A stretch of 64,000 bases of DNA from Bradyrhizobium embrapense. GTDB lineage: Bacteria > Pseudomonadota > Alphaproteobacteria > Rhizobiales > Xanthobacteraceae. Where the stretch lies: NCBI RefSeq assembly GCF_001189235.2, contig NZ_LFIP02000003.1:682001-746000 (forward strand). The letters run 5' to 3'. Position numbers and translations under genes: made by a program. Under the pieces are notes generated by a model. The model was not told where the DNA came from and made no database searches. It saw nothing but the letters and a program-made list of their open reading frames with translations. Every line of letters starts with the position of its first letter. Positions within the stretch are counted from its first letter, which is position 1. Positions 2,677-34,931 of the stretch are shown in pieces.

Positions 2677-3692
2677 CCGAGTTGCAGGCAGGTCAGGGCG
2701 CGCAGCCGCTGGAAGTGCCCCGGATCGACGCTAGGCCGCAGCGCTATCGTGATCTTTTGGTCGCGCTCGCGGCGTTTGCCGTGCTCGCGCTGCTCCCGAT
2801 GGTGTTCGGCAGCAAGCAGCTGCTCGACTTCGTGATCCGTTGTGCAGCTTACGGTCTGTTCGCGACGTCGCTCAACCTTCTGGTCGGTTACACCGGCCTG
2901 ATCTCGTTCGGGCACGGCATGTTCTTCGGCCTCGGCGCCTATGGCTTCGGCCTCATGATGCAGAAGACCGGTGTGCCGATTCCGGTTGCCTTTGTCGCCA
3001 CGCTGGCGATGACCTGCGTCGTCGCCGTCGTCATCGGCGCGATCTGCGTGCGGCTGAAGGAGATCTATTTCGCCTTCGTCACGCTGGCGTTCCAGATGCT
3101 GATTCACTCGACCATCCTGTCGTGGCAATCGCTGACCGGCGGCGACCAGGGCCTGCGCGGCGGCATTCCGCGGCCGCCGTTTCTCGGCATCGACCTGTCA
3201 AACCATCTGCATCTCTACATCACGAGCTGCGCGTTGCTGGTGGTCGGGCTGCTGCTGATGCGCCAGATCGCGCAGTCGCCGTTCGGCTACACGCTGCGCA
3301 TGATCCGCGACAACGCGACGCGGGCGAGCTTCATCGGCATCGATGTCTGGCGCGCCAAGCTCGTGATCTTCGTGCTGGCGGCGCTGTTCGCCGCCACAGG
3401 CGGCATCATCATGGCGCTGTTCGTCTCCGGGGCCTATCCCGAATTCGCCTACTGGACGATCTCAGGCGAGGGCATCTTCATCAACATGCTTGGCGGCGTG
3501 ACCACCTTCCTCGGTCCGATGGTCGGCACCGTGCTGCTGCTGATCCTCAATGACACCGTCACGCGCATCACCGAGTACCACGGCATCGTGCTCGGCATCG
3601 TGATCCTGTTCTTTGCCGTCGGCCTGCGGAAGGGCCTGATGGACTTTGTCGTCGAATGGTTCGCGCAGCGTCGCGGCGAGGGGCGCGGTTAG
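2673..3692 (+). CDS. livM: ABC importer permease, LivM family
   Basis: The 339-residue protein has a hydrophilic N-terminal extension of about 25 residues and then multiple membrane spans. It contains the LivM signatures LLVGYTGLISFGHGMFFGLGAY and GEGIFINMLGGVTTFLGPMVG. Its ATG overlaps the livH stop, and it ends two bases before the start of the ATPase gene, so translation is coupled. It is the partner permease of the LivH-like subunit. The substrate is unknown, as for the whole importer. Confidence 0.9.
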   Translation: MTELQAGQGAQPLEVPRIDARPQRYRDLLVALAAFAVLALLPMVFGSKQLLDFVIRCAAYGLFATSLNLLVGYTGLISFGHGMFFGLGAYGFGLMMQKTGVPIPVAFVATLAMTCVVAVVIGAICVRLKEIYFAFVTLAFQMLIHSTILSWQSLTGGDQGLRGGIPRPPFLGIDLSNHLHLYITSCALLVVGLLLMRQIAQSPFGYTLRMIRDNATRASFIGIDVWRAKLVIFVLAALFAATGGIIMALFVSGAYPEFAYWTISGEGIFINMLGGVTTFLGPMVGTVLLLILNDTVTRITEYHGIVLGIVILFFAVGLRKGLMDFVVEWFAQRRGEGRG

Positions 3693-19286: not shown

Positions 19287-19562
19287 TCAGACCGGCTCGT
19301 GTTTGCGCAGGTCGCGGGCGTGATCCAGCGTATTGGCTTGCAGGTCTGCGCCGGCCAGGGGGACTTCCGGCAGGGCGGCCTCGGCAAGGATCTCGTTCGT
19401 GACATCCTCGACCGAGCACGCAGCAATCTCGTGGATGAAACTGATATTGGTGTACTCCCCTGACGCCACCCGCGAGACGACCTCGCGCCGTGTCATTTCG
19501 GGGTCGACGATCGCCTCGCGGCCACGGCGGCCATAGTCGATCATCACGACAAAATACTGCAT
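19287..19562 (-). CDS. 91-residue protein of unknown function, in the repressor module
   Basis: The protein starts MQYFVVMIDYGRRGREAIVDPEMTRR... and has no recognised domain, signal or membrane segment. Its upstream region (19563-19650) holds a TTGACA -35 box at 19626-19621, a 17-bp spacer and a weak AACAAT -10 box. A perfect 15-bp palindrome (19603-19617) sits inside this promoter. It is therefore a likely direct target of the S24-type repressor encoded at 19724-20362. Confidence 0.65.
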   Translation of the reverse strand: MQYFVVMIDYGRRGREAIVDPEMTRREVVSRVASGEYTNISFIHEIAACSVEDVTNEILAEAALPEVPLAGADLQANTLDHARDLRKHEPV

Positions 19563-19602
19563 TGCCTGGTGGCTCGATGCGTTGACTTTCGTTGACCATT
19601 GT

Positions 19603-19617
19603 TTCCGATAATCGGAA
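19603..19617. promoter_or_regulatory. Operator-like palindrome A1
   Basis: TTCCGATAATCGGAA is a perfect inverted repeat around one central base. It overlaps the spacer and -10 region of the promoter of the leftward 91-residue gene. Three imperfect copies occur nearby at 19634, 20398 and 20431. The likely ligand is the CI-like repressor (inference). Confidence 0.7.
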
Positions 19618-19633
19618 TTATGTCAAGCGAAAT

Positions 19634-19648
19634 TGCCGAAAATCGGAA
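19634..19648. promoter_or_regulatory. Operator-like half-conserved site A2
   Basis: This site has an exact ATCGGAA half and a degenerate other half (TGCCGAA). Its centre lies 31 bp from that of A1, about three helical turns, which suits cooperative binding of two repressor dimers. Confidence 0.5.
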
Positions 19649-19723
19649 CCCGGGCATGGGCCTCCAACCGATTCGGGCCCCAATGCACCCGAATCGGTCA
19701 GGCAGGGCTCTGAAGCCGCGCTG

Positions 19724-20362
19724 CTATTTCTCGGACGACCGTCCGCCTTGTGACCGGGCGGATTTGCGGCCCTTCGCGGCCGTCTTGCCGCGCAACCTTT
19801 CGATCTGGCCGCGGGGTAAGGTGACGCAAATCTCGCCGATCCATTCCAGCTTGACGCCGTTGATTGGCTTGGCATTGAAGCTCTTGAGATTGACCGTGCC
19901 GGACGAGGTGCCCCGCTCGATCGTCTTCAGATAGCGCTCGCCGCTCTTCAGCCGGACCGCAGCTTCCTCTCCGTAGAAGCTCGAGAGCGGGTAGCGCTGC
20001 TCGCGATACACCACGATGACATCGCCGTTCTCGTATTTCGGCAGCATCGAATCGCCAGAGACCTCGAAAGCGACGGTTTCCTCCGTCATCGGGAAGGGGA
20101 GCTCGATCTCGCCGAGCCCCTCCGGCGGGACCTGCTCAAGCTCGGGCTGGATCGATGCACCAGCGCCGACCCGGCCCACGATCGGCACCGAATTCAGCTC
20201 CAAGTATTCCATGATCGGGGCGATCTCCGATGCCTTGATCAAGCGGATTCCCGACAGGATTTCGGACACCGCCCCGGCGCGAACGCCCATTGCACGGGCA
20301 AGCCCGCCTTTGCTCTTTCCCGTCTTTTCCAGTGCCCGTTCGATAAGTGCCGCGTCCAGCAT
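19724..20362 (-). CDS. CI/LexA-like repressor: HTH plus S24 peptidase domain
   Basis: The protein has 212 residues. The N-terminal helix-turn-helix covers about residues 5-40 (KSKGGLARAMGVRAGAVSEIL). A linker with VGRVGAGAS near 63-70 fits the usual cleavage region. The S24 domain has Ser105 in SGDSMLP and Lys146 in GERYLKTI as the expected catalytic dyad. This is the architecture of phage repressors that self-cleave on RecA activation. Paired operator-like sites flank both its own start and the 91-residue gene. A basic, Ser-rich C-terminal tail follows residue 185. It is divergent from the GcrA-like gene. Confidence 0.87.
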   Translation of the reverse strand: MLDAALIERALEKTGKSKGGLARAMGVRAGAVSEILSGIRLIKASEIAPIMEYLELNSVPIVGRVGAGASIQPELEQVPPEGLGEIELPFPMTEETVAFEVSGDSMLPKYENGDVIVVYREQRYPLSSFYGEEAAVRLKSGERYLKTIERGTSSGTVNLKSFNAKPINGVKLEWIGEICVTLPRGQIERLRGKTAAKGRKSARSQGGRSSEK

Positions 20363-20397
20363 GTTGCATCCTCTCCAAAGCTGGATGCACTTTACCG

Positions 20398-20412
20398 TTA
20401 CGATTATCAGAA
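20398..20412. promoter_or_regulatory. Operator-like palindrome B1
   Basis: TTACGATTATCAGAA matches the A1 palindrome except for one symmetrical change in each half. It lies 36 bases upstream of the repressor start, where it could give autoregulation. Confidence 0.6.
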
Positions 20413-20430
20413 TTCAAGCTTGACTTTTTC

Positions 20431-20445
20431 TTCGGAATATCGGAA
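20431..20445. promoter_or_regulatory. Operator-like site B2
   Basis: TTCGGAATATCGGAA has one exact ATCGGAA half. It lies 33 bp from B1, centre to centre, just downstream of a TTGACT -35-like box at 20420-20425. It is well placed to block transcription toward the GcrA-like gene. Confidence 0.5.
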
Positions 20446-20488
20446 GCTATGCGAGGCGCCGGCGGAATGACAAAAATGGGAATTTGGA

Positions 20489-21049
20489 ATGGATATGATG
20501 AACTGGCTGCCGGAGCATTCGGCGGCCTTGCAGGACCTGCGCGCCCGCGGCTTGTCCTACTCGGAAATCGCCGACACCATCAACGCAACCTTCAGCACGG
20601 CTTATACGCGCAACGCAGCCCTCAGCCGAGCACAGCGCATGGGGTTGGCTGGCCTCGATCGGCCAGAGCCATCCCTGTCAGGGCGCCTCGACCCACCCAA
20701 GCCGGCCTTGCCGGAGCCAGCGAGGATCGAAAGCCCGTGTGAACGGCGGGCCGAGCCGAAGTGCGATCTGCTTCGCTGGCCGAAAAGCTTCACCGAAACG
20801 GTGGAGATGCCTCAACTTCGTTGCGCGGCGGTCGCGCCGCGGCACCTTTCACTGTTCGACCTCAAGCGCGGAGACTGCCGCTATCCCTATGGCGGGGATG
20901 TCGATGGCGAAGCCATGACGTTCTGTGGTCACCCGCGCCAGCCGGGCTCGAGCTATTGCACCCCGCATTTTCACCTGAGCCGCGATTCCGAGGCATCGGC
21001 CCGGCCGGTCCTGAACGATGCCTGGCTTCAAACCGTCGGGGCCATCTGA
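20489..21049 (+). CDS. GcrA-like transcriptional regulator
   Basis: The protein has 186 residues. The N-terminal helix-turn-helix has MNWLPEHSAALQDLRARGLSYSEIADTINA followed by YTRNAALSRAQRMGL, as in GcrA. The C-terminal half has the GcrA-type Cys pattern GDCRYPYGGD...FCGHPRQPGSSYCTPHFH. In Caulobacter, GcrA binds sigma70 and methylated DNA. Here the gene sits in a repressor module, so it is more likely a phage-derived paralogue than the housekeeping copy (inference). ATG 20489 or the second Met two codons on are both possible. Confidence 0.85.
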   Translation: MDMMNWLPEHSAALQDLRARGLSYSEIADTINATFSTAYTRNAALSRAQRMGLAGLDRPEPSLSGRLDPPKPALPEPARIESPCERRAEPKCDLLRWPKSFTETVEMPQLRCAAVAPRHLSLFDLKRGDCRYPYGGDVDGEAMTFCGHPRQPGSSYCTPHFHLSRDSEASARPVLNDAWLQTVGAI

Positions 21050-21146: not shown

Positions 21147-21722
21147 ATGCCGCGCGCAAAACGCCGGAAGCCGTACGATCCCGCTGGAACACATGATCGG
21201 CGCTCCCAGGATCTGCCCTTTAACGCCGAAGTGGCGACCGTTGAGGTCGACAATCCTCTCGCGCTTGAGCTGGGCGAGAAGATCGTCGCGTTTCGCTCGA
21301 TCCGCAACGACCCGCTCGGCCGGTTGCATGCACACCGGCAGATCGACGACACACAGTACCGGAGCGGTCGAGCCTTCCAGAACGATTGGGAGAAGGCCGA
21401 GCGCGGCCCTCGAGCGGTGGATACGACGCGTGAATATGTTGACGGAGGCCAGCAACGTGAGCCGATCACGGAGGGGCAGCGCCAGGCGACTTTGCGCCTG
21501 AGTCGCGCCGAGCATGAGCTCGGTGCCGACGGTTCGGCGCTGGTGCACGACGTCCTGATCCTCGGCATGACCATGGAGCAGGTTGGACAGCGGCGCGGTT
21601 TGTGTACGCAGCGTTGGCAGGACTATTTTGCGCGGCGTCTCAAGGAGTGCCTGGATCGGCTGGCGCTGATGTACGGGTTCGCAACGCCGAACAAGGTTCC
21701 GGCGAAGGACTGGCAACGCTGA
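21147..21722 (+). CDS. Phage-module protein, possibly DUF6456-like regulator
   Basis: The 191-residue soluble protein begins with a basic segment (MPRAKRRKPYD). A central stretch, NDPLGRLHAHRQIDDTQYRSGRAFQ, recalls the DPLxRLxxxGxID motif that I associate with DUF6456-type proteins. The C-terminal part has a possible helix-turn-helix (GMTMEQVGQRRGLCTQRWQDYFARRL). GGAGG lies seven bases before ATG 21147. It follows the GcrA-like gene on the same strand and is probably under the same repressor. The function is unproven. Confidence 0.65.
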   Translation: MPRAKRRKPYDPAGTHDRRSQDLPFNAEVATVEVDNPLALELGEKIVAFRSIRNDPLGRLHAHRQIDDTQYRSGRAFQNDWEKAERGPRAVDTTREYVDGGQQREPITEGQRQATLRLSRAEHELGADGSALVHDVLILGMTMEQVGQRRGLCTQRWQDYFARRLKECLDRLALMYGFATPNKVPAKDWQR

Positions 21723-32485: not shown

Positions 32486-32515
32486 TTGACACGTCGGGCA
32501 ACTCAGGGGCATAAT
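32486..32515 (+). promoter_or_regulatory. Near-consensus sigma70 promoter in repeat copy 1
   Basis: TTGACA at 32486-32491 and CATAAT at 32510-32515 are separated by 18 bases. The expected start site is near 32522, only about 14 bases before a strong hairpin. Confidence 0.6.
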
Positions 32516-32535
32516 CCGAAAATCAGAAATTATTG

Positions 32536-32568
32536 AGCCCGCGCGGAGCAATCCGAAGCGGGCTTTTT
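32536..32568 (+). terminator. GNRA-capped intrinsic terminator, copy 1
   Basis: The outer stem AGCCCGC (32536-32542) pairs with GCGGGCT (32558-32564). The inner stem CGGA/TCCG is capped by a GCAA tetraloop (32548-32551). T-tract 32564-32568 follows. Placed right after the promoter, it would yield an RNA of about 45-50 bases. Confidence 0.65.
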
Positions 32569-32814
32569 GTTTGCCGTTTCACCAATCGGACGGCGGCCGC
32601 AACGTCACGACGCCACATCCTCCCAGCCCGTCGCCTGAGCGTCGCAAGCGAGCCGCCGTCCGAACCCGTTGAAACGAGCACGAAATTGACCGGCGCGCGC
32701 GAACGCGCCGGTCCAGCGGCGCGGCGCAAGCCGGCGCCGCCAGCGGCCCCACTCGTCAGGGATAAGGTTCGCGCCCCAAAGATCGCCATCCGTTGCGCGA
32801 TCTGCCGCACATTC

Positions 32815-34805: not shown

Positions 34806-34848
34806 CAGGTGGCGCATCGAACGCTTCCGCTTCATCTCGCAAAAACGT

Positions 34849-34878
34849 TTGACACGTCGGGCAACTCAGGGGCATAAT
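34849..34878 (+). promoter_or_regulatory. Near-consensus sigma70 promoter in repeat copy 2
   Basis: Both boxes and the 18-base spacer are identical to copy 1, although the flanks have changed. This suggests either recent duplication or selection on the promoter. Confidence 0.6.
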
Positions 34879-34898
34879 CCGAAAATCAGAAATTGTTG

Positions 34899-34931
34899 GG
34901 CCCGCACGGAGCAATCCGCGGCGGGCTTTTT
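34899..34931 (+). terminator. GNRA-capped intrinsic terminator, copy 2
   Basis: The stem GCCCGC (34900-34905) pairs with GCGGGC (34921-34926). The inner CGGA/TCCG stem and GCAA loop are kept, and T-tract 34927-34931 follows. Changes relative to copy 1 fall in linker or outer positions. Confidence 0.62.

Follow-up and report, generated by a model that had tools for sequence, protein, structure and literature searches.

Two pairs of operator-like palindromes around an S24 repressor gene in the chromosome of Bradyrhizobium embrapense raise the question of whether a lambda-type switch is present and, if so, whether it now belongs to a phage or to the bacterium. A first-pass annotation of the window (the whole 64-kb stretch of DNA that was analysed) had read a complete lambda-like switch directly from the letters. 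A literature search recovered no paper on this locus by title or abstract opening. The features of the region, in which O denotes putative operators and P promoter-like sequences, are as follows:

19287 to 19562, minus strand: gene for a 91-aa protein of no known family, conserved beside the repressor gene; the putative leftward target of the switch
19598 to 19626, minus strand: P_L, TTGACA (19626-19621), 17 bp, AACAAT (19603-19598), serving the 91-aa gene; a promoter scan match
19603 to 19617, no strand: O_L inner, the perfect operator TTCCGATAATCGGAA, within the P_L spacer
19634 to 19648, no strand: O_L outer, 31 bp from O_L inner; the least conserved of the four operators
19664 to 19701, minus strand: strong hairpin (z -2.9) between the repressor gene and O_L, with no T run; possibly a terminator
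19724 to 20362, minus strand: gene for the HTH-S24 repressor, 212 aa (PF00717, 49.5 bits; HTH_31 and HTH_3 below their cut-offs)
20389 to 20417, minus strand: P_RM, TTGAAT, 17 bp, TAAAGT, promoter-like sequence of the repressor gene, read by eye; its -35 block is conserved
20398 to 20412, no strand: O_R inner, within the P_RM spacer
20420 to 20449, plus strand: P_R, -35 element TTGACT (20420-20425), directed towards the GcrA-like gene; read by eye
20431 to 20445, no strand: O_R outer, just behind the P_R -35 element TTGACT (20420)
20489 to 21049, plus strand: GcrA-like gene, 186 aa (PF07750, 99.7 bits), first in the rightward operon
21147 to 21722, plus strand: DUF6456 gene, 191 aa (PF20057, 32.0 bits, cut-off 26.3), of the GafA/GafZ family

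The palindrome TTCCGATNATCGGAA was found at each of the four positions given in the first-pass annotation, with 0 mismatches at 19603 and 2 each at 19634, 20398 and 20431, and the spacings that it had reported between site starts (31 bp for 19603/19634 and 33 bp for 20398/20431) were recovered. At up to 3 mismatches, the window contains 10 matches against 3.6 expected, a number reached in 0 of 100 shuffles. The genome-wide search that had been proposed as a check was carried out, and the perfect TTCCGATAATCGGAA was found to occur once in the 8,267,832 bp (8.27-Mb) genome. Sites with up to 2 mismatches number 36 genome-wide, compared with 4 for a reversed-pattern control, and 4 of these 36 lie within 843 bp, where the expected count is 0.0037 and the Poisson probability of three more sites beside the perfect one is 7.6e-9. 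Four sites at up to 2 mismatches in 843 bp are thus far beyond chance, the reversed pattern being a simple null.

The remaining six window matches at up to 3 mismatches are at 3514, 31081, 32514, 34612, 34877 and 35351. Those at 32514 and 34877 are identical and lie inside a duplicated element (window positions 32490-32580 and 34840-34930), the near-identical copies of which carry TTGACACGTCGGGCAACTCAGGGGCATAAT, the operator-like palindrome and a terminator-like hairpin, GCCCGC..GCGGGCTTTTTG. This element resembles a short promoter-terminator unit and has related copies elsewhere in the same genome; an Rfam search of the 64-kb window returned nothing at gathering score. A relaxed motif at up to 1 mismatch gave 63 sites in the genome, and among the 8 of the other sites that were inspected none was shown to be a further operator. 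Five of the 8 adjoin a dispersed repeat of the gagttgcccgac type (L119, L121, L123, L124 and L125), one is next to sequence like a repeat found in the related genome G025 (L118), one is inside a 457-codon open frame (L122), and L120 is in neither setting. Genome G025 itself carries 44 copies of TTCNGAWWWTCNGAA and genome G020 carries 54; most of the 20 G025 copies that were retrieved (L126-L145) are in one dispersed repeat containing gatttgcccgtcgggt.

The product of the repressor gene retains an intact Ser105/Lys146 catalytic dyad and an Ala67-Gly68 cleavage site, roles that we take over from LexA and cI, and all four residues are invariant in the 26 of 26 repressors aligned. The repressor is therefore predicted to be self-cleaving. 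Its profile found no match among PDB sequences at E <= 0.001. A second HTH-S24 protein, of 217 aa, is encoded elsewhere in the genome (G000:C2:285375-285686; L002), and S24-domain matches of similar score are present in most genomes of the family that were searched; a LexA assignment was considered for these second matches and was given no support by NCBIfam for the one checked.

Matches to the repressor were detected in 190 of 195 sampled Bradyrhizobium genomes, and an orthologue (E <= 1e-77) in 187 of 195; three of the others have a weak second S24 match only and five have no match. In this search the aligned range of some rows contains a single in-frame stop, which was taken as the gene end, and the G077 match begins only at residue 38. 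In a search of 198 genomes of the family, ten of them from the genus beside the source genome, the matches listed from outside the genus mostly cover the S24 domain only, and near-full-length ones are rare among those listed, examples being one in a genus-45 genome (52% over residues 9-200) and one in a genus-4 genome (33% over residues 3-190). As the repressor is near-universal in the genus and near-full-length relatives are rare outside it, we infer from these sequence matches that an ancestor at or close to the root of the genus acquired the module. Of the eight flanking proteins scanned, which come from both sides, none is an integrase, replication or structural protein of a prophage; all belong to ordinary chromosomal families (OpgC, glycosyl hydrolase 3, GFA, CoA transferase III, YqcI/YcgG, MFS, a histidine kinase and a response regulator). 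The locus belongs to the core of the genus and does not form part of a prophage.

For comparison of the surrounding sequence, 80 loci (L003-L082, including MAGs) were used. These lean towards close relatives because they are the best 80 of 166 relatives in one scan, and 20 loci of a second clade, picked by hand and with repressors 73-79% identical, were added for that reason; L083-L111, apparently in large part from genomes already represented, were not counted. The 91-aa gene was present in 80 of 80 loci, and the GcrA-like and DUF6456 genes in 77 of 80 each. The rightward operon is absent from L005, L009 and L020, in which the outer O_R site is also not recognisable, and one deletion could explain both losses. 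In the second clade, the 91-aa gene was found in 20 of 20 loci and the DUF6456 gene in 8 of 20, the stretches of the other 12 being too short to judge.

The operators are conserved along with the genes. In an 81-row alignment, the two most palindromic windows of each region fall at the operator positions, with palindromic fractions of 0.785 and 0.698 upstream of the repressor gene against a mean of 0.259 (145 windows), and of 0.753 and 0.684 downstream against a mean of 0.272 (177 windows). The highest fraction of the 145 windows is that of O_R inner. O_L outer differs from TTCNGAWNWTCNGAA by no more than 1 letter in 55 of the 81 rows, and O_R outer by no more than 2 in 78. Within the palindromes, TTC-GA and TC-GAA are conserved. 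Palindrome positions 4 and 12 vary without regular pairing (at O_R outer, C/C in 32 and T/C in 31 of 81 rows), indicating that conservation, with no visible compensatory change, maintains the palindrome; such change, in the form of pairs like TTCTGA..TCAGAA, had been considered, and the counts, with no clear covariation, do not bear it out.

At up to 1 mismatch to TTCNGAWNWTCNGAA, 71 of the 80 loci combine at least two upstream sites with at least one downstream. Two or more sites are found on both sides of the repressor gene in 47 loci, at least one on each side in 75, and no downstream site at this threshold in 5. The spacing is 33 bp in 62 upstream cases and 31-32 bp in 42 of 48 downstream. 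Three or more upstream sites are present in 36 of the 80 loci, usually with one site 24-25 bp from the inner site. At up to 2 mismatches, each of the 20 second-clade loci shows three sites upstream and either one or, in 15 loci, two downstream, whereas mononucleotide-shuffled DNA, a simple null, yields 0.025 such sites per 340 bp. Where a third upstream operator is present (for example in L038, L071 and L202-L221), one site lies near the ribosome-binding region of the repressor gene. A three-site O_R, as in lambda, is thus common in the genus, though O_R of the window has only two sites. The exact TTCNGAWWWTCNGAA is absent from 5 of 26 sampled genomes, four of which have the repressor and keep one-mismatch variants (L202-L205), and some second-clade genomes lack the exact motif because their sites are mostly variants of this kind. 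The lack of covariation and the evidence from the second clade act in opposite ways on the probabilities given below, which were kept unchanged.

The annotation had also placed each operator pair at a promoter, and all four sites do lie in or against promoter-like sequence, although two of the three promoters match the consensus poorly. P_L is the best promoter-like sequence of the region, and the operator at 19603 fills its 17-bp spacer; its blocks CTTGAC and AATANT are conserved in the 81-row alignment, and TTGACN-N16-18-NANNNT precedes the 91-aa gene in 69 of 80 loci, a count that has no control. P_RM and P_R are back to back, with near-adjacent -35 elements and one operator each, and are called weak because neither hexamer pair passed the promoter scan. 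The -10 element of P_R (20443-20449) is weak and overlaps the operator end. The P_R block AAAGTCAAGCTTGA is conserved in the 81-row alignment, and the layout is equal in the virus contig G389.

The protein encoded by the 91-aa gene belongs to no Pfam, NCBIfam or PADLOC family, and its fold gave no match in PDB or BFVD at E <= 0.001; five PHROGs were each matched weakly by one of 34 relatives. The genome encodes four GcrA-family proteins with PF07750 (contigs C5, C1, C4 and C3), of which the product of the gene at 20489 to 21049 scores lowest, and its 38.8 bits against the equivalog for the sigma-70 cofactor GcrA are below the cut-off of 280. Judged by these scores, it is a divergent GcrA paralogue.

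The DUF6456 protein is the sole match to this family in the genome, and the family was matched in 36 of 36 members tested. In the accessible parts of PMC9638019 and PMC9765227, DUF6456 is the family of the gene-transfer-agent activators GafA and GafZ. GafZ of Caulobacter is reported as an antiterminator in the accessible part of PMC11150451, which also states that GafZ models resemble no known antiterminator. An AlphaFold model of the Bradyrhizobium protein has a pLDDT of 67.6, with the first 53 residues mostly below 50. When this model was compared with VIA, phage 21 Q made up the four best rows (Z 7.5-8.7; the best with Z 8.7, rmsd 4.3 and 100 residues aligned), values that are near those of sigma-factor rows and within reach of the noise level for helical folds. 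The DUF6456 protein is tentatively predicted to be a Q-like antiterminator. It had no match in BFVD at E <= 0.001, the best (E 0.003) being a phage DUF6456 protein, and an IMG/VR scan for close relatives found none.

All four genes are under purifying selection. Nei-Gojobori dN/dS values between the window and chosen loci were 0.01-0.21 for the repressor gene and 0.04-0.27 for the 91-aa gene (14 comparisons each), and 0.17-0.36 for the GcrA-like gene and 0.05-0.16 for the DUF6456 gene (13 each); the pairs share the window sequence and are not independent, and some dS values are near saturation. Structure alignment A4 omits L044, the frame start of which is doubtful, and A5 omits L020, L038 and L071.

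A lambda-type immunity region consists of cI with O_L and O_R. The gene order here is leftward gene, O_L, repressor gene, O_R and rightward operon; as in lambda, the repressor gene is bracketed by two operator groups facing opposite early promoters, the inner operator is in the repressor's own promoter, a gene for a predicted Q-like protein is in the rightward operon and, in the part of the genus noted above (36 of 80 loci and 20 of 20 in the second clade), three upstream sites occur. Unlike lambda, the window has two sites per group and a GcrA-like gene in the position of cro, and the Bradyrhizobium locus, which has no N, cro or other phage genes, is fixed in the genus. A second repressor expressed from P_R, as Cro would be, was looked for, and the first rightward gene is of the GcrA family. 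The description as a complete lambda-like switch is therefore upheld for the two operator pairs that bracket an S24 repressor in lambda order, for the similar arrangement of related virus contigs and for the conservation of the sites in the genus. It is not upheld for completeness, as cro is missing, the genes on either side are of ordinary chromosomal kinds and a core module stands in place of a prophage.

When IMG/VR was scanned for operator pairs, 17 stretches were recovered (13 + 7, with 3 shared), and a relative of the repressor was detected by tblastn in 10 of them. L175 (84%) is the bacterial cassette itself, L180, L187 and L188 carry a 74% relative, L185 has only the end of a gene of the 74% type, and five have distant relatives (32-46%, some partial). 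No repressor match at E <= 0.01 was found within L179, L181, L183, L186, L189, L190 or L192, of which L186 is a tandem repeat and L192 a further stretch of the contig of L191. Whole-record searches of G389, G392, G393, G394, G395 and G396, records that may be fragments, each recovered four sites and no more, arranged as two pairs; the first four records, with equal sites, equal spacing and, where present, a 73.8% match, may be one virus. A whole-record search of two Bradyrhizobium phage records found no such operator sites.

The G389 stretch contains integrase, endolysin, DNA methylase and AAA-ATPase genes and has the lambda order around its repressor gene, with one operator pair facing the AAA-ATPase/methylase side and the other a short rightward gene. 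The O_R side of G396 carries GcrA-family and DnaB-like helicase genes, and its O_L side encodes an exonuclease. The promoter-operator geometry, TTGACT-GA-TTTCTGATTATCCGA-AATAGT in G396 and TTGACT-TAAAT-operator in G389, matches what is seen at the bacterial locus. These contigs thus share the four sites in two pairs, which in G389 and G392-G394 surround a closely related repressor gene, but they have their own gene of no known family next to O_R (89 aa in G389, 88 aa in G396), and towards O_L they encode a methylase, an AAA-ATPase or an exonuclease; the stretch of G395 gave no match to the repressor. Phages that combine this type of repressor with the operators have no DUF6456 (0 of 10 virus records). 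The phage ppBeUSDA76-2 (OP596614.1) encodes a relative of the 91-aa protein in its recombination operon (ERF/YqaJ/NinB) and a DUF6456 relative two small genes before the large terminase gene, in the position of a late regulator, but has 0 operator sites and no match to the repressor at E <= 1e-3. As no record has all of the parts, the cassette is best described as a mosaic, with no parent phage shown.

Taken with the distribution in the genus, the locus is most readily explained as a former temperate-phage immunity region that has become a core regulatory locus, in which a damage-released repressor would act on both operator groups; we put the probability of this reading at about 0.75. Repression, autoregulation and release by self-cleavage are proposed here from the anatomy of the locus and from what is known of the families, so that binding, cooperativity, cleavage and antitermination are inferred by analogy. 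The S24 repressor, probably in the form of cooperating dimers, would bind at both ends of its own gene, where the palindromes are separated by about three turns of the helix. At O_R it would shut off the rightward gcrA-like/DUF6456 operon and, from the inner site, tune its own promoter, and at O_L it would shut off the 91-aa gene. DNA damage is the probable trigger of release, in that RecA would stimulate self-cleavage at Ala67-Gly68 and so free both promoters at once, and the output, a GcrA-type sigma-70 cofactor and a GafZ/Q-type antiterminator, would act on a target elsewhere in the chromosome. No target of the antiterminator was found, the RcGTA markers having been searched for in the source genome. 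Retention of the switch, without the remainder of the virus, in nearly every genome sampled from the genus suggests that it now serves the bacterium itself.

The main rival is that the repressor is kept for superinfection immunity, silencing incoming phages with equal operators, and that the output genes are secondary. Virus contigs do carry equal operator pairs, and one virus repressor type has a nearly identical HTH region (GVRxGAxSEIxSG), which makes this a possible explanation, though not a probable one. It leaves unexplained the purifying selection on the 91-aa, GcrA-like and DUF6456 genes and the conserved promoter blocks, and there was no PADLOC match.

A relationship with gene transfer agent control was also considered, in which the locus would be the Bradyrhizobium version of the Caulobacter RogA-GafYZ circuit. 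According to the accessible part of PMC9632790, RogA is an HTH-S24 protein that represses gafYZ, and the Bradyrhizobium locus is similar in having an HTH-S24 repressor gene upstream of an operon with a GafZ/DUF6456 protein. However, RogA is said in the same text to lack key catalytic residues and its target to have GGAA-N4-TTCC repeats, whereas the Bradyrhizobium repressor keeps Ser105/Lys146, its sites are TTC..GAA and its gene is adjacent to the operon. A PF07750 GcrA-like gene is present where GafY, which is DnaA-like, would be, and the second HTH-S24 protein (L002) may be the RogA counterpart instead. The two RcGTA markers searched for, DUF2460 and GTA_TIM, each gave 0 matches in the source genome. 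Orthology with this circuit is on these grounds unlikely.

In the genus, GTA_TIM was matched in 5 of 80 at E <= 0.001, 4 of them over the cut-off and 1 strong. The strong match (G035:C186:1649-2557; L113) is from an 80%-complete assembly assigned to the genus, and may be contamination or else a real GTA. The lack of both markers in the source genome agrees with the accessible part of PMC7363004, according to which each of the four main nodulating Rhizobiales lineages may have lost its GTA genes; on our reading, Bradyrhizobium is one of these lineages. The missing RcGTA markers would mean that a GafZ-family gene under a cleavable repressor has outlived RcGTA or never belonged to it.

A functionless, decaying prophage remnant would account for the lack of phage genes among the eight flanking proteins scanned, the loss of the rightward operon in 3 of 80 loci and the absence from the window of the third upstream operator of other clades. 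This reading is very improbable and was rejected, as dN/dS is well below 1 for all four genes, the locus is near-universal in the genus sample and the operators are conserved. That the palindromes are part of a dispersed repeat unrelated to the repressor is hardly credible: the motif is repeated in G025 (44 copies, most of the 20 scattered copies retrieved being inside one repeat) and in the duplicated element at 32514 and 34877 of the window, but flanks of this kind are missing at the four sites, the sites stay beside the repressor gene while copy number varies from 0 to 54 between genomes, and virus contigs carry them around S24 repressor genes.

The reading of the locus as a former immunity region in bacterial service leaves room for a more speculative and rather doubtful extension, namely that the damage-cleavable core switch drives, in a fraction of cells, an unrecognised late programme such as a non-RcGTA particle, lysis or DNA release. 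If true, this would be a convergent counterpart of RogA-GafYZ in a group reported as possibly lacking RcGTA.

The locus is a real, well-conserved module and a switch of a familiar kind in an unusual setting, being core and orphan and having a GcrA and DUF6456 output. A viral decision switch seems to have been turned into a core circuit of a major soil and nodule genus, with its operators kept and the other parts of the virus gone. With exact operators, promoters and named genes, it offers a test of what phage switches do in bacteria, whether immunity, damage response or hidden DNA transfer, and a route to the function of GcrA paralogues and of DUF6456 proteins away from GTA clusters.
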